From Mugil cephalus (lineage: Eukaryota > Chordata > Actinopteri > Mugiliformes > Mugilidae): 64,000 nucleotides of DNA. The stretch spans positions 9,414,616-9,478,615 of the forward strand of contig NC_061774.1 in assembly GCF_022458985.1 (NCBI RefSeq), read 5' to 3'. The notes beneath the pieces are model-generated. The model saw only the letters and a list, made by a program, of their open reading frames with translations, made no database searches and had not been told where the DNA came from. The translations under genes were made by a program, and so were the position numbers. Below, piece after piece: positions 2,657-47,283 of the stretch. Each line of letters starts with the position of its first letter. Position 1 is the first letter of the stretch.

Positions 2657-3259
2657 ATGGGTAGCGAAGGTGAGATAATAAACAGAGAACTGTCAAAGAT
2701 GTCTGACGAGGATCTGCTGGCTTGCTCCAAAGAGGAGCTAGTGAGCCGGCTGCGTAAAGAGGAGTCAGACAAAATCTCAGCCCTGATCCAGCGCGGACGG
2801 CTCATCAAGGAGGTAAATAAACAGCTGCAGGGACACCTCCTCGAGATCAGGGAACTGAAAGTCATCAATCAGCGTCTTCAGGAGGAAAACGTGGAGCTGC
2901 GGGACCTGTGCTGCTTCCTGGACGACGACCGGCTCAAGGTGAAGAAGCTGGCCAGGGAATGGCAGCTGTTCGGGCACCACGCAGCCAAAGTGATGCGGGA
3001 GGACCTGGGCGGCTACTTGAAAAAGCTCGCCGACCTGGAGCGCATGCAGGACGGGCTGGTGAAGGAGAATCTGGACCTGAAGGAGCTGTGTCTGGTCCTG
3101 GAGGAGGAGTGTGTGAGCAGGAGTGACTCCAGCCCTGGGGGCTCCACCGAGCTCAATCTGCCTTGCATGGTGGCCCGGGATTTGGGGGACGGAAGCTCAA
3201 GCACAGGCAGTGTGGGAAGCCCGGACCAGCTTCACCTCGTGTGCTCACCTGATGACTGA
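2657..3259 (+). CDS. ccdc85b: Coiled-coil domain-containing protein 85B (CCDC85B/DIPA)
   Basis: Intronless 200-residue protein, very close to the length of human CCDC85B (about 202 aa). Family knowledge: CCDC85B is a small coiled-coil adaptor found in the nucleus and at cell junctions and centrosomes; it has been linked to transcriptional repression, catenin binding and hepatitis delta antigen. Visible here: an acidic start with the family-like segment SDEDLLACSKEELVSRLRKE (about residues 16-35), then a heptad-rich coiled coil to about residue 85 containing RLQEENVELRDLCCFLDDDR, a linker with REWQLFGHHAAKVMREDLG, a second coil (about 105-155), and a Ser/Gly-rich tail ending SPDD. The start is the first ATG in frame and gives the family N-terminus. 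It converges with fosl1, the same arrangement as in human 11q13. Other CCDC85 paralogues (A, C) are much longer. Confidence 0.93.
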   Translation: MGSEGEIINRELSKMSDEDLLACSKEELVSRLRKEESDKISALIQRGRLIKEVNKQLQGHLLEIRELKVINQRLQEENVELRDLCCFLDDDRLKVKKLAREWQLFGHHAAKVMREDLGGYLKKLADLERMQDGLVKENLDLKELCLVLEEECVSRSDSSPGGSTELNLPCMVARDLGDGSSSTGSVGSPDQLHLVCSPDD

Positions 3260-5608: not shown

Positions 5609-6316
5609 TTCTACAAATTAGTACAGTTTAGACAAAAGTAAGGCACTGCCCACCCAAATCAAACATTACCAAAAAATATATATATTACACTCTCAAAAAT
5701 AAATATGTTATTATAAATCTATATTAACTCCCTATGGTCCAGCCTTAGTGGTCAACAATTTGCATAGACACTATTATGATTCTTAAAGAATCCGTACAAA
5801 AATAAGGACCATTTGTTAAGTACTCAATTTCCCATTTGAGGACTATTATAAAGTATCACATGATATAACAGAAAATGTAACAAGTTACTAATATTATCTC
5901 AAATAATCAGTATTCAGCATAATTATCAGTATATAGCATTATAGATGGAGTTATCGCAGTTATTTCAAAAACTCTAACAATTCTTTATAGAATCCATTCA
6001 GCATTCAGCTTTCATAAACATAAAACATATTAAGCCCATCTTATAGCTTTTATATTAAGAAATATAAAGATTTTTATATGAAATCTAACAAGAGTGTAAC
6101 ATTCATATCCTGATAATGCCTCTAATTTGCACACTATCTAAGCAAAAAAAAAACTTTCTGAAGAGATAAAGAGAAGCAGATGTATGTAGCTTTTCAAAAG
6201 TAGTAATTATAATCATCATTATCATTCCACATTTTCCAGACATCTTTTCTGTCATACACGGCTATGACTGCATTGAAATGAACATTAGTGTTTTGCCAGA
6301 GTGGCAGGCCAGTCGA

Positions 6317-8751
6317 TCACAGTGTGAGGATGGTCGGGGAGTGCAAGGAGTGATCTGACTGGTCACCGCTGCTGCTGCTGCGGCGATGGGCTATCCCACA
6401 TGGCTGAGGGGCCTGAGACTGCTGGACATTTCCCTGATGTGAACTGTGGGACGAGGTGGAGGCGCCGGTGTCTAAAGGAGCGGAGGGATAGGTAAATACC
6501 ATACCAGCTGCGAAGGACAGTAGAGAGGGAGTAGATGTGAGAACAGGGGTGTGGAGTGACTCGGATTCAGTGGCGGCAGCTGAGGGGGTTGATGTTACGG
6601 GCTTGGTGGGGATAGATATCTTTGGTTTGGGCTTCTCCATCTTTAGTAGCCTTTTGGTTGAGGGTCCAGGTCTGCTGGGTTCCTCTGGCTCCAATTTGAT
6701 GCCTCCCAACGAGGAAATTGATGGGTTTGGGTCAGAATCTGAATCAGAGTCCACTATTTTGCAAATGGGACGGTGGGCTTCCAGGACCAGCTCGAGCTTC
6801 TCCTTCTCTTTTTGTAAATCAGCTATTTCCTTCTGCAAAAATGACTTTTCCTCCTCCAGCTGATCGGTCTCCTGCATTGAGGAAAACAGACAAATTTCAA
6901 TTCAAGTCACACCCGAATGAGGCTGTTAACTTACTTTCAGGAATTCATGTTTGGTAATTGTTCACTCACATTTTGCAGTGAATCTGTGAGCTCCCGGCGA
7001 CGAGTGCGACATTTCGCTGCTGCCAGTTTATTCCGCTCCCTTCTTATTCTGCGTCTTTCTATTTCTTCCTGCGATAACTTTAATAAGAGAGAGAAGGAAA
7101 ACTATTACAACACATGAAATAGGTTGACCTGACATTGTGCCATCTAGCTTTGAGCAAGAAACTCATTTCAAAATATCAAATTTACAGGGATTTTTTTTTG
7201 AGATTTCCCAAAGGGAACATGACACAGGAGAAACACTACCACCATGTGTTCACTCTGAGTCATCACAGTCATGACGACTGAATTATTCAAAAACGTCTGA
7301 GCTTTTGTGCCTCTGTTACACCCTAACTCTCAATTCATCTAGTGCCCTTCCCAATAATGCTGTTGATCCATCGATATTTCCCGCCCTTTAGGTGATGACT
7401 CACCCCCGGACCCCAGTGGTGACTCGGGGGTGAGTCACAAAAGTGACTTACCCCTGTGAGTCACATGACAGTCTACTTCCTGTACCATGAAATTACTACT
7501 CTGTGACGGGGATATGTGCCAATATGTGCCTGACAAAACCACAAGAAATGACACAATGTGCTGCTGACAATAAACGATAATGTTCTTAAAGGTAAAGTTT
7601 CTCTAAATTGAGCACTTAACTCTAACAGGTAATATTGCTCTTCTCACTAAAAGCAGATATGTGATCATTTCACTATGTCAACAACAGCTCAAAGTAAACA
7701 CTATCAAAGAACACAGAGAATGACACTTTGTGCCTGTCTTTAGAAAGTGAATGTTTCTTAACCATCTCAACTGTAAATTGTCCCCTTCTTCCCCATCGAG
7801 ATGGATGATCTGGTGAGCACGTCTGAAAGAGCAAGCTCAGTTGTGTCACTGACAATTACAGGATATTACACACCAGTTACACAAAAATGATTGAGCCACT
7901 GTCCACACCTCTGTATCTGTTTTCCTTCTGAGGAAACTATGAATCCCAAGGCGGCTTTAGTTTTCACTCAACCTGACAATACTCATTTTTCAAAAGTGAA
8001 AACTGAAAATGAACAATGACGTTTCCTAACAAGGACTGATTACTTACATGATCATCATTCCTGCGCCGTGTTGAAGTTGTGGCGTGTGAAGCTGCTCTTA
8101 TGACCCCTGGCCTGAGAAGATGGGGATGGGATGGTGTTGGTATGAACGGCCGCGGCCCTTGAAGGGTTGGGTAAGGAGGTACTGGTGATCGCGATGGGCC
8201 TGGTGAGTGCATGAGGGAGGGCTGGACCAACCACTGTAGGTCCTGGTTGGTGGTGATGGCATTGAGGCTTGGTACAAACTGACTGCTTCCTGCCATTGTA
8301 AATTTCTGAAACCAGAAAAATAAATAGTTTACGCATAAAACAAATTTACAGTGCTGTAACAGATCATCAATAACAGTGATCACTTATAAGACCCATTGTG
8401 TGAGGAGTAAACACTGTATAATTAAAATAAAACATTTTACACTATTTTAAAACATATCAACTTTAGTAGTTACTACACTTGATTTAACAATTTGTGTAAA
8501 CTATACAAAAATACACATATGTTGGGACACATATTATCAGTGTGACAGGTTTAATATAATGAAATTCAATTCAAAAAAACTTCTAGACTGTTTTTTACTG
8601 AGATGACCCTTCAACCTGTAGCCTAGATTAGTGAAAGCAAACCTACCTGTTCCTGTTGCGTGGTGGAAGTGCTGGTGCTTCCCAGTGATGCAGAGTCTGA
8701 CCCCGTGTACGGCGGGTTGCCTCTGCCTTGGCTCCCAAAGTTTCGGTACAT
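6317..8751 (-). CDS. fosl1: Fos-related antigen 1 (FOSL1/Fra-1), bZIP transcription factor
   Basis: Four coding exons on the minus strand: 8751-8647, 8305-8048, 7068-6970 and 6871-6317. All junctions are phase 0 and the product is 338 aa. The protein dimerises with Jun to form AP-1. Exon 1 starts MYRNFG, as in Fos proteins (human MFRDFG). Exon 2 has FVPSLNAI and LQWLVQP, both family blocks. Exon 3 carries the basic region [19 protein letters not shown] (about residues 130-148). Exon 4 carries the leucine zipper (about 150-190; [19 protein letters not shown]) followed by EAHRPICK. The C-terminus [10 protein letters not shown]...SPTILTL matches the Ser-rich Fos tail that ERK/RSK phosphorylation stabilises. 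The four-exon structure is that of FOS genes. FOSL1 fits better than FOSL2 or FOS because of length, sequence and the convergent ccdc85b neighbour. Confidence 0.95.
7256..7463. promoter_or_regulatory. fosl1: Cluster of AP-1 (TRE) sites in fosl1 intron 2
   Basis: Four perfect TGA(C/G)TCA sites lie at 7256-7262, 7396-7402, 7431-7437 and 7457-7463. One-mismatch versions occur at 7420-7426 (TGACTCG) and 7444-7450 (TGACTTA). All lie between coding exons 2 and 3. Mammalian fra-1 is known to be autoactivated by AP-1 through intronic sites (first intron), so a positive-feedback enhancer is the natural reading. Confidence 0.75.
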
Positions 8752-9141
8752 CCTTTCTGCTTCAGTAAAAAGTAAATTCAATCCAGCTGCGACTGACTGT
8801 AAGGTCTCACGGAAAGACTTTCGGGTTAAATCCTGTTTGTCAATTCAAATCAAGGGGCGAACTCCCCCTTTGCGGTAAATCGGTAGAGTCCAAACTCGAA
8901 GGTCTTCAAGGGGGGACAAGGAAGAGCACACTTCCTTGCCTGTTTTCCAAATCGCCCTTAAACTTAAAAAAATTGTTTTCAGTGTGCCCTACCGCTCTGA
9001 ATCATACACCTAGAATCGGAAGTCTGGAAATGATCGTGAGGTTGTAAACTCTTAAAGAAACACTATAGGTTTACCACGCCCCTCCGTAGTTACGGGAAAT
9101 AGTGTTGTCTGGAATCTCTCACGAATTCTACCACGTGCTCT

Positions 9142-9162
9142 TGCGTCATTACCCATATTTGG
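9142..9162 (-). promoter_or_regulatory. fosl1: SRE (CArG box) with adjacent TGCGTCA element, fosl1 promoter
   Basis: CCATATTTGG (9153-9162) is a perfect CArG box, CC(A/T)6GG, for SRF. It sits 3 bp from TGCGTCAT (9142-9149), a CRE/AP-1-like element resembling the c-fos FAP site next to its SRE. A CACGTG E-box lies at about 9132-9137. The pair is about 400 bp upstream of the fosl1 ATG. Growth-factor induction through SRF and ATF/CREB is known for FOS genes; here it is inferred. Confidence 0.7.
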
Positions 9163-10044
9163 TGAGAGTTTCCTCTCGAGACTAGAACTAGGGATTCCTC
9201 AGGCAGCTTCGCCTCATGGCATGAAACTAGTAGGTTTTCTGCCCTGCTATCAAACGCAGGGGTGGAAATACTACTACTACACTTTCCAGCGTTAAATGGA
9301 AGTGTTGTTGAAACGCCTTCATGCGATCACTCGACAAAGACTGAAAAGCTGACTGGAGAGAGTTTATCACTGCTAAAGAAATGACAATTCTAAATAAAAT
9401 CTTTTTTTTTCTTTGTCACTGCAAATCACTACATCCAGTAAGTATGGGCAGTTTATATATAATTTTATATATTAATGTCTGTAGTTATCACTACCACTAC
9501 TTGCAGTAACCACTTAAATATATTTTAACCCTCTTCTGCCTGATTAGTACACTTTTTCCCTTATGCATAACAATGACACCATATGCCAGTTTTAAATTCA
9601 GAACGGGAAACCCCACCCACATTCAAATCTAACAATTACTTGTAATTAGACTCAGTTTTTTTGAGTTAAGTTAAAAGTATGTAATGTTCAATTTGAGAAA
9701 TGATGTATATGTTGAAATGATTTGAAGTCAACACCGCATGTCATTTTAACCAAATTAAAAAATATCTTAAAGAGGAATTTACACACAACATGATTTGACC
9801 ATTCTCATCTTTCACCATAAAGCTGTGTCCTGCAAGAAAGCGATTTCTGTTATTATGAGTGTAACACATGTATTATACCTCACGTATGAATGAATTTCAA
9901 ACTGGCATATATAAACCATATATAAACTATGATGAGTTATGAAATAGAAGTACAGTTTGGTTTCATCTAGATAATTGGGTCGGAGCTTTTGGCAGTGACT
10001 CTCACTTTACAAACCACATCAGTGCGCACACATGCTTGTGGTGA

Positions 10045-10051
10045 TGAGTCA
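10045..10051. promoter_or_regulatory. AP-1 consensus TGAGTCA, distal to fosl1
   Basis: Perfect TRE heptamer about 1.3 kb upstream of the fosl1 ATG. A single 7-mer can occur by chance, so weight is low unless chromatin data agree. Confidence 0.3.
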
Positions 10052-10639
10052 GTCCAGTGGCATAAAACTGCTCAGTTATTTCACCACTCGTTTCGACGTC
10101 TGTTTTTTTACACGCAAGCACAATATAGTACCTAGTAAAGATTCAAAAAACGCCTGCTGTAAATTCGGTAAGCTTAGTCTGTCACAACAGCTGCTGACCT
10201 TGCAGTCCCCCAGGACAGAGTTCCCGGCATTGGCTGATTTGTACTAGCTGCTGACTGTCGAACAGGGTCTCATATTCCTCTCCTGGGAATAAAGACTATT
10301 GATATTTTTCAAGTAGCTAAGCTGTTTTCAAAGACAGTTACTTGTGCATTGGGAAAAAGTATATTTTTTGGAAGGAAAAGAAAATATATTGCGGATCAAT
10401 TATCCTCACTTACATACTGAGGCAATAAATTGAGGTCTTGGGCTTTTCATACTCAACTGAAACTGCCAGGGGTAGGAGACTTTAAAAGGCCTATACCTGT
10501 TGCTCCCTATCCCATTCATCTGGAACTCATGTTTCAGATTTCAGCAATATTACACCCTGTAATATTGAGGACACACATGCAAGATGTTGTGTATAATAGT
10601 ATCATGTGAGGTAAATATGGCGTAAAGGTGAGCGTCAGA

Positions 10640-10646
10640 TGACTCA
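10640..10646. promoter_or_regulatory. AP-1 consensus TGACTCA, distal to fosl1
   Basis: Second perfect distal TRE, about 1.9 kb upstream of the fosl1 ATG. Same caution as for the site at 10045. Confidence 0.3.
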
Positions 10647-11117
10647 GGCTTCAGGAATGCAGCAATGACACACTTACTTTGTACCATAGCTCTCTAATGG
10701 TGACATGTCCAAACATGTCAGCCACCATCTTTTCCCCATTCACACCTCCATTCATTCAATAGCTGCTTCTATTATCCTTGAACTTACCAGGAAATCACTG
10801 CACAATGCTCATTTGTTAGATAAATGTTTATAAAGTGGTTTGATTATTTGCACTTGAGGGGAAAGGTTTAGCTTTCTGTTTTACTCCACAGTTTCCCTCC
10901 AGAAAGTACGCTGCTTGTTGTTGAGAGTGTAAGTTTTAATTTTCAATTTGACTCCACAGTTTCCCTCCAAATCTAAATGTTGACTGGGGGAATAAAGGAA
11001 GCTTGGATTCCATTACTATTTACTCATCCTAAAACTCTCCACATGTATTCACATAACTCATCCACACCCACTCACTCGTCCCACGCACTCATCCCACTCA
11101 CACATGTGCCTCACAGG

Positions 11118-21660: not shown

Positions 21661-24600
21661 ATGGAGAATAGCTCTCATACACTGCCACCCTTGTCCCCGT
21701 GTCCCACCACTCTGCCTTTCTCCTCCTCACCTCTGCAGACCCCCCCAAGTTGCCGCCTTTCGCTCCCACTTTCGCCCATTTCATTCCCCCCGTCCCCCAC
21801 CTCACTTTCTCCAGCGACGGCAGAGTCTGTCCACTCCTCGTCCCCTCTTTCCCACTGCACAGCGTCTCATCGCCTCGAAGGACAAAACATACAATGCATC
21901 AGCCCGGAAAACCTATCTGACCAAGATGACCTGACCTGTCTCAGCTGGCTGCATCAGAGAGGAAACCTGCTACCTCTGCAGCCCCTCACCAAAATGACAC
22001 CGCTGACCCAGCAAGAGTCCTGCACTCCTGCCCAGTCCGTTCTTCCAGTGTCATCCAAGCCTCCTTACTCCTTTAGCAGTCTCATTTTTATGGCAATTGA
22101 AGATTCCCCCGACAAGAGGCTTCCGGTGAAAGACATCTACGAGTGGATTGTGAACAATTTCCCTTACTACAGAACAGCCACCGGAGGCTGGAGGAACTCG
22201 GTCAGACACAACCTCTCCCTGAGCAAGAGCTTCCGTCGCATTCAGAGGGACAAGAGCCAGGTGGGTGCACAAATCAAGTCGATTTCTCCATCTGAAAGCA
22301 AACAACCTCCTGAACTGCACTGAAGCCATATGTTCTGTAGTAAAAAGAGGCCCCCATAAAGCGAAGTCATCATAATGTACTCTCCACGTATTACAGATGT
22401 GTCAATATTCCTGAAGGCTACCATCTTTGCAGCTTTAATGTTTCAACATGATTTGTGTACTTGTTGCAGTCAGTGGGGAAGGGTTCGCTGTGGTGTGTGT
22501 GTCCGGAGTATCGGCCGGCGCTCCTCGAAGTGCTGAGAAAGACCCACAGTTATCACAGCACCAACAGCAATCTGATCAACAAGCCTGCACTGTGAGTAGG
22601 ATTCACACCGTTAAAGCTTCTACAATAATCGTGAATAATACAATGATTATTATTGATTGCTGTTTAATTTATCTTTACTCTTTAAATTCATAAAACTGAA
22701 GAAACGACAATTTAATCTGAAACCGTGTTCAGCTCGTCATGATGCTGGACTAAACAAATTAAAAGTAAGCTGCTAAATGTTGGGCTACAGAAAGACAATT
22801 CTACTGTATATTAATACCAGTTTCTTGAAATGTGAAATAATAATTTACTAAATTGAATGACTTGTTATTTATTGTACAACGATTGTTATGATCAGTCAAT
22901 ACGTCAAACATTTGCATTTGCTAGTCTTAGTGGGATGAATTAAGAAATGTTTACACAATTTTACACAATTTTAAACTAGTCTATTGATTACTTGCAAAAA
23001 AAAAGCAATAAAAATAAAAAGGTGTTGGGGGCTTATAAAAAAAACACATGGAAATATTATATATATTATTACATTGAAATATTACATTATTATTCCTCTG
23101 GACTCAATAATACTCAATAAATACACTCACTTGCCAGTTCACTAGGTGGTGAAAATGAATGTATATATGTCTAATATAACAGTCCTGCACTGTGTCCCTG
23201 GTATTTAGCTTAGCCCACTGACTAAAAACCACAGCCTCCCAAATGAAAACACAGTTGAATCAACAGCTCTCAGTTATTTTAAACGAATGCTGAATGCCAG
23301 TTCCAGTGTGAGTTACTAGAGTCTTTCTACGTGTACTTTTCTGTGGTTTGTTGGGGGAGTAGCACCAGCAAAATAGACAGTAGTAGGATCAACAAACCGA
23401 TCCCAGAGGCTGGACATGTAATTTGTAGGTAGTTAGGGATGTTTGTCTCAGTGAGGGACAGGAAGACACTGGATAAACTGCTCTCCATTATGGACAACCC
23501 ATCCCGTCCACTACACCAAACACTATAGAGGGGCAGCAGAGCTCATTCTCCAGCAGACTGATTCAGCTCCACTCCCACAGTGACTGCTACAGAACTATGA
23601 CCAGGCTATTTCCCTTGTGGATATTTAAAGCCTAATAAGCTGAGATTACTGTTCGCACTTGTGTATCTAATGAACAAATTAGCTGTAGTGGGTAAAGCGT
23701 AGACTCTTTTATTAGTATGTATTTTAAACAAATAAATAAACCAAAATGCTCTATTTACATAGTTGTCTGTGATTTCTGTGTGCAGGTTGGAGGGAGCTGA
23801 CTATGAGGTGCCTTCGGTCTGCGATTCGATGGATATCTCAGGTTTGTGACTCTTGACGTCTCTTAATTTGCCCCAGAACCAACATATGTGACCCTGCATG
23901 AATGAATTTCTAATTAGTTTTAGTCTACAGTATTTCATCAGTGGGGTAACAGCCCTCTGTGACGCTTTCATTACCTGCAGCTTTTCTCTCGCTCTGCAGC
24001 TTTCTCAACATGCAGCATTGTTCCCGTGTTTGTGTTCTGTTGTCATGGCAACTGCCCTCTATTACCTAGGCAACCCAGCAATAGCCTAGCTTAGTGCTCT
24101 CTATGAGTACCCACCGTTTTACTTCAGATCCTATGCACCATATGGGCCCAGGTGCCCGCTGGAGAATCTGACAAGCGGTTGTTCAACCCGGCAGTGAAAA
24201 CAGATGTTAATGTCTGACTTTATTTCATTTCTAATCTCATCCTGCAGATCCTCTGTCTCACACGCTGCTCCTCTCCACGTCCTCCTCCCAAATCCTCACC
24301 ACCGATAACCCCAATTTCGCTGACAACCCATCATGCCCTTTGACCCCGGACCACGAGGAACTTGTCACCATGGAGTCGGTGGAATACCAGCAGGAGGAGG
24401 TCAGCGAAGAGATGGAGAAAGACCCCCTGTCGGACAGCGGCTACATCGAGTTACACTATTACCAGTCCCACCAGTACCAGTACCTGGTGCTGCCGGGCGA
24501 CACCGAGCTGGACCTGGAGACCGTGGAGATCCTTCAGCTCGATGCCGAGGCCCAGGAGGCGGCCGGGTCACTGCTGGACCTGGCAGGAGGTGGATATTAA
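21661..24600 (+). CDS. Forkhead transcription factor, FOXN2/FOXN3 type
   Basis: Coding exons 21661-22260, 22470-22591, 23786-23841 and 24248-24600 give 376 aa with consistent phases. Residues 1-80 are Ser/Pro-rich. LSDQDDLTCLSWLHQRGNLL (about 84-105) matches the WLH block before the FOXN2/3 forkhead. The winged helix runs from KPPYSFSSLIFMAIEDS (133) through the recognition helix WRNSVRHNLSLSKSF to VGKGSLWCVCPEYRP in the second coding exon. The C-terminus keeps DPLSDSGY and EAAGSLLDLAGG, both near the ends of FOXN3-like proteins. These factors bind forkhead sites and mostly repress transcription. It is shorter than human FOXN2 (431) or FOXN3 (490), and WCVCPEYR and the region after it differ from the usual WC(I/V)DPEYR. 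Hence it could be a fast-evolving paralogue; I do not assign N2 or N3. Confidence 0.87.
23122..23300. mobile_element. Palindromic MITE family, copy D (partial)
   Basis: It begins ATACACTCACTTGCCAGTTC ACTAGG, like the left end of copy B, followed by AACAGTCCTGCACT and CCCACTGACTAAAAACCACA (the mirrored interior). It lies in a forkhead-gene intron. Confidence 0.7.
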
Positions 24601-42600: not shown

Positions 42601-44424
42601 TCATTTTCAGTTGAGTGTGTCCTGGTGAAATTAGCATCGAGGGCTCTATAGGCTGTAGTGGACCTCAACCGTTCACACATTAGACAACGTGTTAACCGCT
42701 TGTTCTCTCTGCAGGCCTCCGGTGTGAAAGTCACAGATGAAGTTATCGCAGTCTTCAATGACATGAAGGTGCGTAAGGCACAGGCAAATGAGGATGAGAA
42801 GAGGAAGAGGAAGAAGGCCATTCTGTTCTGCCTGAGCAAGGACCTCAAGAACATTGTCCTGGATGACGGTAAAGAGATCCTCCTGGGCGACCTGGGAACC
42901 ACCGTCCAGGACCCATACCAGCACTTTGTGAAGATGCTGCCCCCAGACGACTGCCGCTACGCCCTGTATGACGCCACCTATGAGACCAAAGAAACAAAGA
43001 AGGAGGACCTGGTCTTCATCTTCTGGTGAGGGCCGCCGTAGTCAAACATTAGTAACTTTATGACCTCCATTGAGATGTCTTTAGACTTTAATGTCTTCTG
43101 TCTCTTCACAGGGCTCCAGATAGTGCTCCTTTGAAGAGCAAGATGATCTATGCCAGCTCAAAAGATGCTATCAAGAGGAAATTTGAAGGTGAGTAACAGT
43201 ATACGTTGGTTTTAGGTTGAGAACCATCGGGGACAAACGTACTTATTGAATCCTGGATTACACCTGATAGATCTCCAAACCTGAAGCTGCACCGTGAAAA
43301 TTAAACTGAGTTTTTGTCCAGAACAGGGCAGGGACATGATTGAGCTGCAGATGTTATAAATATCACCATCTCGGCTCAGATGTCGTGGGTTCTTTGGGGG
43401 GGTTACATCACATTTGAGAAACGGTTCATTTTACCTTTGAACTATGGCCTCGGCCTGAATATGTGCTTCTTATTTGTCTAACGCTTGTGTCCACTAAACC
43501 GTCCACCACACTGTGTCCTTTAAACAGGGAGGTGTGCTGAATGAATACAAAAAAACATCTTTCATGCATAATAAAATCAGATGTTAAGAGAGCAAAACAT
43601 TTTAATTAAGTCACACAATGATTGAATTAGACGGTAGAGCCGGGCGGCATCATCTCACGATATAAAGCTTTCATTTAGAACTCGTGGTTACAACAACGAA
43701 AGTCGTGTACACGAAATGTTTCGCCTTTAAGTGGTAACATTACCTGTAAGTCGCAAGAGCGCTGCTGCTAGGCAACCGTTGAACTCAAGAAGCCACCGGG
43801 GGCTAGCAGCTTTAGCATCGTAATGATCTGGGGCCTGGATTTAGGAATAAAGTATAGATGAAGTTGTTTGAATATCCACATTTTCTTCAGACATTTTATA
43901 AAAGAAAACTATATATGACTAAATTACACCTACACCATTTCTGAATAGGTCTACAAGCTGGTGAACTTGGGACCAGTCCAAAGATTTTCAGTTACGTGGC
44001 CACAAGAGGGTGCTGTTTAAATGCTGCCGTTTACTTGTTCACACAACGTAAAGGCAGCAAAATTGGCCTATTTTAGTTTCTGTGTGGCATTTATACCCGG
44101 TTAACAGTAGATTTAAATATATCAAATATTTTAATCTAGCACCAAAGTGAGGTGTAGTGAATCATATCTATTGACATTAAACCTTTTGGTCAGTGGACAT
44201 TCACATGTTAATCTTACTTAAAGATCCGTATAATCCACTTTAACTTACACATTTCTCTGAAAACGTACCGATTCATACTTCTCACTGGTGCGTGTGTCTT
44301 TCTTTTTTTAGGAATTAAGCACGAGTGGCAGGTGAACGGTTTGGAGGACCTCAAAGACCGGCACACCCTGGCAGAAAAGCTCGGTGGCTCATCAGTAGTC
44401 AGCCTGGAAGGATCCCCTATATAA
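39642..44424 (+). CDS. cfl1: Cofilin (actin-depolymerising factor)
   Basis: Four coding exons: 39642-39644 (the ATG alone), 42715-43025, 43112-43188 and 44312-44424, total 167 aa (human cofilins 166). Cofilin binds and severs ADP-actin filaments. Seen: MASGVKV with Ser3, the LIM-kinase site that switches it off; the nuclear-localisation block KRKRKK (about 30-35) after EDE; LCQ-like region [23 protein letters not shown]; and the long actin-binding helix [20 protein letters not shown] (about 110-130). The one-codon first exon is the usual vertebrate cofilin structure and confirms the start. Intron 1 is about 3.1 kb. CFL1 and CFL2 are hard to separate by sequence alone; linkage to 11q13-type neighbours favours cfl1. 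It converges with prss23. Confidence 0.94.
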
Positions 44425-46125: not shown

Positions 46126-47283
46126 TTAGTCCTGGACACAGTCTAGTCGGTTACCATGCACCCAGTAACAGATCTGAGCAAACTTCAGAGGAGTAATGCG
46201 CACCGCCACATTGTAATCCCGGTTCTCCCCATCGATCTCCAACCACTGGTGCCCGGAGAAAATACCAATGACCTTCCTTTCCCAGCGCTCCAAGCCGTTG
46301 TCCCACACTCGTCCATACACGCCAGAGCCGCTGGCTCCGGGTCGGGCGTCACAGTGCTGGTATATCAGGTTGCTGGACTCTTCTTCCACAGGGCAAAACC
46401 TGTACACCAGCTCTCCGGGCCTGTCGCTGTCAAAGCCAGAGAAGTGGATGCGTTTCCCTGCCAGATCCTCTGAGGAGGGAGCCACGGAGAGGCGCATGAA
46501 GGGACGCCGATGAGGCCAACGCAGCTCCAGCAGGGCGTAATCAAAGTCCATGCTGACCTCCTGGGGACCCTGGATCCAGCCCTTCGGCACACGGGTGCGT
46601 TTCACCCGCACCCAGCGAACCAGAGGCTTCTTGCCAGAAGCGAGGCCGGCTCTGGTGCCGTTGATGGAGGGAGGGATCAAGAAGCCCACCCTCAGCTTCC
46701 GTGCCCCGTTGACATAATCCTTCCCGTCGTGGACGCAGTGGGCGGCCGTGAGGACGTGCTGCTGGGACACGAGAACGCCGGTGCAGCCGGTGGAGATGCG
46801 CACGGCCGTGGAGAAGGGGTAGTCTAACAGGAAGTCGTCCCCTTGGATGTTAAAGCGGCCGTCCGCTCCATAGATCTGTCGCCTCACACGCCTGTGTCTG
46901 GGCTTCACCCTGAAACTCCTCCCGAGCGACGGCCGAGCGAAGTCGTCGCCTTCAAACTCATCATCGCCCTCCACGTCCACGGCGGTGAGGGTGCGGGAGC
47001 CGTCGGCGTACAGCGTCTCGAACGCCAGCTGCTCAGAGAGCTGCTCCCTCTGCTCCTCGTGCTCTCCTCTGTGGAAGCAGCTGGAGTTGCAGTGGGTGGT
47101 GAAGTCCAGCTGAGCGTGGGCGCTGAAGCGGGAGCGGGCGAGGGGCGTCGGCGTGTGGGGGACCAGCGTGGGGACGTGGACGGGCGTCTGGTGGGGAGGG
47201 TGGAGGAGAGACAAGGTGAGAGGGAGGAGGAGATGGAGGGGCAGGAGCAGGTGGGTCAGGAGGAAGCTCTCACGTGGCGCCAT
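46126..47283 (-). CDS. prss23: Serine protease 23 (PRSS23), secreted
   Basis: Single coding exon of 385 aa (human PRSS23 383). It begins with a hydrophobic signal peptide (about 1-27), then a propeptide with Cys65/Cys69 and an acidic stretch, ending at the basic cleavage-like motif HRRVRR (130-135). The trypsin-like domain has His182 (TAAHC), Asp248 (DYALLEL) and Ser318 in GASGSGVYG, where Ala replaces the usual Asp before Ser, as in PRSS23/PRSS35. PRSS35 lacks the catalytic Ser, so this is the PRSS23 side. Other family marks are IHFSGFDSDRPGELVYRFC and IFSGHQW, ending CYWVHGNRLDC. Possible N-glycosylation sites are at Asn66 and Asn208. An acceptor (TTTTCCTGCAG) 18 bp before the ATG at 47301 implies at least one non-coding upstream exon, not located. 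Secreted; substrate unknown. Confidence 0.94.
   Translation of the reverse strand: MAPRESFLLTHLLLPLHLLLPLTLSLLHPPHQTPVHVPTLVPHTPTPLARSRFSAHAQLDFTTHCNSSCFHRGEHEEQREQLSEQLAFETLYADGSRTLTAVDVEGDDEFEGDDFARPSLGRSFRVKPRHRRVRRQIYGADGRFNIQGDDFLLDYPFSTAVRISTGCTGVLVSQQHVLTAAHCVHDGKDYVNGARKLRVGFLIPPSINGTRAGLASGKKPLVRWVRVKRTRVPKGWIQGPQEVSMDFDYALLELRWPHRRPFMRLSVAPSSEDLAGKRIHFSGFDSDRPGELVYRFCPVEEESSNLIYQHCDARPGASGSGVYGRVWDNGLERWERKVIGIFSGHQWLEIDGENRDYNVAVRITPLKFAQICYWVHGNRLDCVQD

Follow-up and report, generated by a model that had tools for sequence, protein, structure and literature searches.

An AP-1 enhancer in the first intron of mammalian FOSL1 (fra-1) was reportedly described by Bergers in 1995. Mammalian FOSL1 is positively autoregulated: the AP-1 element responsible sits at +1.1 kb, within the first intron, and further Fra-1-bound enhancers lie upstream of the gene (PMC7968996). 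One review names AP-1, MYC, TWIST1 and SNAIL1 as factors at the enhancer in the intron (PMC8946526), and another reports that the first intron has a canonical AP-1 site (PMC8835756). An earlier note on this DNA had pointed to such AP-1-responsive sites in mammalian fra-1, and an intronic enhancer by which AP-1 feeds back on the gene is indeed what these three sources describe. In zebrafish, fosl1a is strongly induced directly after fin amputation and is needed for the normal speed of regrowth, with mutant fins regrowing late (PMC7047409), and in the injured heart dominant-negative AP-1 in the endothelium lowers fosl1a (PMC10881044). Wound endothelial cells were also fewer in that experiment, and the fall of fosl1a may come partly from loss of the cells that express it. 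In PMC4627065 a zebrafish fosl1a promoter was chosen for another motif, not AP-1. The regeneration enhancers of one zebrafish study are described as requiring E-box and AP-1 motifs (PMC9922731), and injury enhancers of the fish and mouse heart as enriched in ETS and AP-1 motifs (PMC10077677). The literature searched, by titles and opening lines of abstracts, gave no pointer to an AP-1 cluster in intron 2 of a fish fosl1 gene, which does not prove absence.

We analyzed a 64,000-nt stretch of a fish genome (C5:9414616-9478615 of a 634.8-Mb, 24-contig genome; hereafter the window), whose minus strand carries a fosl1 gene, modelled with GT/AG splice sites. In this gene model, coding exon 1 (8647-8751) is followed by an intron 1 of 341 bp (8306-8646), exon 2 (8048-8305), an intron 2 of 970 bp (7078-8047), an exon 3 of 108 bp (6970-7077) that matches the bZIP basic region, and exon 4 (6317-6871), which by structure match encodes the leucine zipper and the C-terminus. 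Among solved structures, the joined bZIP of the fosl1 exons matched c-Fos and FosB chains, at E 2.4e-24 for the best match. In Pfam, exon 3 matched bZIP_1 at E 6.3e-4, under the curated cut-off, and exons 2 and 4 had zero matches. Relatives of exon 4 were sought in a collection of genome contigs (129 pattern stretches) and relatives of exon 2 in a collection of viral contigs (42 stretches), and none was confirmed in either.

We named the gene fosl1, not another Fos gene, because we take its C-terminus to be Fra-1-like and because human FOSL1 has CCDC85B and CFL1 as neighbors: the window holds a CCDC85-family gene at 2657-3259 (+) and a cofilin/ADF-type open frame at 42658-43029 (+). Further open frames in the window encode a forkhead domain (21661-22323, +) and a trypsin-like protease (46126-47283, -). 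In the basic region of fosl1 (minus strand, ~7003-7005) a Thr stands where five other Fos-family loci and an ATF3-like locus of this genome have the Asn of CRN; the position presumably adjoins base-contacting residues, and the Thr would be either a basic-region change next to these residues or a sequence error.

Inside intron 2 we located, by motif match, a cluster of AP-1 sites (TREs) at 7256-7463. It is made up of four exact TGA(C/G)TCA heptamers, namely TGAGTCA at 7256-7262, TGACTCA at 7396-7402, TGAGTCA at 7431-7437 and TGAGTCA at 7457-7463, and of two near sites with one mismatch each, TGACTCG at 7420-7426 and TGACTTA at 7444-7450; no strand is assigned to the cluster, its sites or its repeats. 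The earlier note had claimed four perfect heptamers and two near matches within 208 bp of a fosl1 intron, between coding exons 2 and 3; all six sites were found, the gene model places them in intron 2, and the c-Fos/FosB match and the CCDC85-family neighbor point to FOSL1 as the host. All sites except the outermost form a core array (7396-7463) with start-to-start spacings of 24, 11, 13 and 13 bp. An 11-bp inverted match, TGAGTCATCAC, links the 7396 site to the outermost site at 7256, and the 7396 site opens a perfect 13-bp inverted repeat, TGACTCACCCCCG, with arms at 7396-7408 and 7425-7437. The site cluster is real and locally unusual.

The density of heptamers in the cluster is beyond chance. 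Against a shuffle mean of 13.9, the window holds 16 heptamers, or roughly one every 4 kb, so that the earlier estimate of one in about 8 kb was too low by half. The accompanying claim that four heptamers this close together are striking held up: none of 800 simulated windows reached four in 208 bp (0/400 order-1 and 0/400 order-3 Markov windows), and 16 sites placed at random give such a cluster with P = 2.2e-4. Within the window, TGASTCA is the sole word among the 64 palindromic NNNSNNN words with more than two copies per 208 bp, and three NNNWNNN words attain three copies within that span. At least four copies in 208 bp are reached by 34 of the 7844 strand-collapsed 7-mers in the window; seven of these 34 have at most 20 window copies, and TGACTCA is among the seven.

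Across the 634.8-Mb genome, the mixed-orientation triple TGACTCA-N0-30-TGAGTCA-N0-30-TGAGTCA (C-G-G) had seven matches, the fosl1 cluster included, and its reversed control had two. One of the seven (C1:27024446) lies inside a tandem repeat and another (C8:21498494) has repeated 10-mers around it. RTGASTCAY-flanked sites were most numerous at the fosl1 cluster (3 of 4 sites, vs 0-1 at the other six loci), and an exact ETS octamer was present within the central 600 bp only there and at C19:4528356. The chance that one of seven random loci would hit the 4.5-kb fosl1 interval is 5e-5, and a set of 15 AP-1-type genes, each of 12 kb, raises it to 2e-3, both figures being after-the-fact and the second using an assumed gene number and assumed sizes. 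The looser triple TGACTCA-N0-30-TGASTCA-N0-30-TGASTCA gave 168 rows genome-wide, 106 in forward and 62 in reverse orientation, vs 67 for the reversed pattern used as control; when rows at most 2 kb apart were joined, 100 of them, on contigs 1-16, formed 40 loci, and tandem repeats hold many of the triple rows among the matches listed.

Another mixed-orientation AP-1 triple stands at C19:4528356-4528412; an exact ETS octamer is close by, and 600 bp hold four heptamers. Repeat arrays with TGACTCA in their units, and with many heptamers each, lie at C8:29807-30181, C9:788966-789498, C13:233973-234797 and C2:33628982-33629141, and are possible sinks for AP-1. At C14:23207704-23346405, one 35-bp AP-1 triple occurs at least four times in ~140 kb, a local duplication.

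We then compared the cluster with related genes. A bZIP query gave eight other genomic loci, of which six regions of 9.9 kb (five Fos-family and one ATF3-like) were compared and the weaker L015 and L016 left out. Their exact heptamers number 3, 0, 1, 1, 0 and 1. Two within 208 bp is the most that any of the six shows, and this happens once, in L017, where the pair is 156 bp apart. Therefore, the AP-1 cluster is no general Fos-family trait, and among the loci compared the array is particular to fosl1. Once one mismatch is tolerated, the richest 208-bp spans of the six loci hold 4, 2, 2, 2, 3 and 2 sites vs 6 in the fosl1 cluster, and the four sites of L017, together with its exact pair, soften this contrast a little. 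In blast comparisons with the six loci, the element and intron 2 gave short matches of 12-28 bp only.

Besides AP-1, 23 consensus strings were scanned, and it is from among these that the candidate matches for ETS, E-box and E2F were chosen. An E-box, CACATG (7462-7467, no strand assigned), lies in an M-box-like TCACATGA (7461-7468) and shares 2 bp with the last AP-1 site, and an ETS-like site, CAGGAAGT (7475-7482, minus strand), follows 11 bp past that site, so that AP-1 is paired with both motif classes, as candidate matches. Other consensuses matched an E2F-like TTTCCCGC (7377-7384, plus strand), which is the sole TTTSSCGC match in the window, an Sp-like AGGGCGGG at 7380 (minus strand) and a RUNX-like site at 7536. 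A Maf/Nrf2 site was considered and rejected; AP-1 dimers are preferred as ligands because the extended Maf/Nrf2-type motifs are absent (no TGCTGASTCA in the window, no RTGACNNNGC in 6300-11000).

Upstream of fosl1 we observed two more exact AP-1 heptamers, at 10045 and 10640. Immediate-early promoters of the fosl1/c-fos type carry an SRE and ATF/CRE sites. In likeness to these, CACGTG, TTGCGTCA (9141) and the CArG box CCATATTTGG (9153) fall inside 31 bp at 9132-9162, ~0.4 kb upstream of the fosl1 ATG, and by its motifs this stretch is a putative promoter module of the immediate-early type, an element separate from the cluster and outside it.

We read the cluster as an AP-1/ERK-responsive intronic enhancer of fosl1 that would serve positive autoregulation, and give this reading a probability of roughly 60%. 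It is favored because the cluster exceeds chance and is one of only seven mixed triples in the genome, because two further exact heptamers lie upstream and three of the four sites carry RTGASTCAY flanks, and because the genome search with the 301 bases around it found no second copy. It is also favored because mammalian FOSL1 has an intronic enhancer and zebrafish fosl1a falls under dominant-negative AP-1, and because published injury and regeneration enhancers pair AP-1 with ETS or with an E-box. Against it count the possible local duplication of part of the array, the lack of such a cluster at the other Fos-family and ATF3-like loci compared, the choice of the ETS, E-box and E2F matches among 23 strings, the possible loss of expressing cells in the zebrafish heart experiment, and one zebrafish region that has several E-box and AP-1 motifs and lacks regeneration-enhancer activity (PMC9922731). 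That AP-1 binds here, that the element enhances transcription, that the loop is positive and that it has a role in the injury response are inferences. In this reading, ERK/JNK signaling set off by growth factors, stress or injury would act first at the promoter, inducing fosl1, and would also activate Jun/Fos dimers already present. Such dimers, before long with Fra-1 itself among them, would occupy several of the closely packed TREs in intron 2, where an ETS factor at 7475 would assist them and a bHLH factor at 7462 possibly as well, and the occupied TREs would keep fosl1 transcription high. If active, the cluster would offer a compact, deletable element for asking whether Fra-1 feedback sets how large or how long the injury response of regenerating fish is.

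The main rival is that one or two chance TGASTCA heptamers were copied by small inverted and near-tandem duplications, leaving an array without function, which we consider possible though rather unlikely. The perfect 13-bp inverted repeat and a 10-mer, GTGAGTCACA, common to the sites at 7431 and 7457 (at 7430 and 7456) suggest that the array did grow partly by local duplication. In 120 same-heptamer comparisons among all 16 sites, the 7396/7431 inverted repeat reached furthest, with a match of six bases past the heptamer; the next-longest extension, of four bases, was found in the pairs 7256/7396 and 7457/18233. The 13 + 13 bp spacing at 7431-7444-7457 and the many other genomic triple arrays in tandem repeats, among the matches listed, also speak for copying. 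If the array is partly a local duplication, the statistical surprise of the cluster is lower, with P = 0.0125 for three independent origins and P = 0.44 for two, at which the density is unremarkable. Set against this, Tandem Repeats Finder, taken down to score 30, reported nothing at 7256-7463, which rejects a classical tandem repeat, and the share of repeated 10-mers is 0.00 (rounded) in the 600 bp around the cluster vs 0.18-0.65 in the genome's clear tandem arrays. A location in an AP-1 gene is also unlikely by chance, given the assumed gene numbers.

Two other readings of the cluster were considered and rejected or given less weight. A transposon or dispersed repeat was set aside after the genome match of the 301 bases around the cluster returned the element itself only, with no second genomic copy in a search that skipped simple repeats and very common words; compared with the window, intron 2 matched itself, its own inverted repeat and two pieces of 15 and 18 bp. 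A structured RNA was sought at Rfam gathering scores, with no match in the window. Single-strand hairpin folding is strong (DNA z -5.15) because palindromic sites form the inverted repeat, and it was not taken as RNA function.

Duplication and function could also be combined, in that the cluster may be a recent, lineage-specific TRE array, raised by local inverted duplication of one AP-1 site into a cooperative, switch-like Fra-1 loop of five to six sites and equivalent to, but independent of, the element in mammalian intron 1. We find this proposal doubtful; if true, the Fra-1 loop would sustain itself above a threshold.

It is improbable, in our judgment, that AP-1 binds the cluster mainly on behalf of another gene, such as the CCDC85-family neighbor, or that the element is a negative, self-limiting one for fosl1. 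AP-1 elements can act from afar (PMC7968996) and Fra-1 also lowers some of its targets (PMC7968996, PMC10354941); against these options, the mammalian FOSL1 intronic element backs positive autoregulation (PMC7968996, PMC8946526) and dominant-negative AP-1 decreases, not increases, zebrafish fosl1a (PMC10881044). The end of the CCDC85-family gene is ~4 kb from the cluster, a distance that would suit action on that gene.

The cluster also lies directly upstream of the bZIP-encoding exons. CREM/ICER is the model of an intragenic promoter, and a comparable promoter here would make a short, bZIP-only Fra-1 opposing AP-1. We hold this to be very improbable, as no downstream in-frame start for a bZIP-only protein was found: the frame upstream of exon 3 meets a TAG at its ninth codon without an ATG, Met is absent from exon 3 and from the zipper part of exon 4, and the phase-0 frames ending at the donor-like 7451 and 7403 have no ATG back to the first stop. 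An in-frame ATG in intron 3 (6877, just before exon 4) would give the zipper only, without the basic region, and intron 2 has no TATAWAWR match. Equally hard to credit is a splicing signal or hidden cassette exon using donor-like sequences inside the AP-1-like sites, since, although GGG|GTAAGT at 7451 and GGG|GTGAGT at 7403 on the sense (minus) strand match the donor consensus and acceptor-like AGs at 7701 and 7530 have a pyrimidine content like that of real acceptors, in-frame stops interrupt each of the four exons obtained within 400 nt at a pyrimidine share of 0.7 or more.

The enhancer reading of the cluster can be set beside known systems. Teleost injury and regeneration enhancers share with the fosl1 element the combination of AP-1 with an E-box and an ETS-like site (PMC9922731, PMC10077677), and two of the published teleost elements sit in transposons (PMC9922731), whereas the fosl1 element has no second genomic copy. 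The mammalian FOSL1 first-intron enhancer is the closer counterpart: in both cases canonical AP-1 heptamers, four of them exact here, lie in an intron of the same gene, ~1-1.5 kb in, and positive autoregulation, described for the one, is proposed for the other. The two differ in that the fish cluster lies not in the first intron but in intron 2, with four exact heptamers in 208 bp and two near sites. The fish element may, as the earlier note suggested, be a shifted or independently gained feedback enhancer. It lies 1.29-1.50 kb downstream of the fosl1 ATG, and because intron 1 is only 341 bp long the mammalian distance of +1.1 kb would fall in intron 2 here, so that no shift of place relative to the promoter is needed. 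Most likely, the cluster is a fresh example of an already known regulatory arrangement, and, if it is active, AP-1 feedback on fosl1, known from mammalian tumor cells, would be wired in this fish through a dense array of sites.
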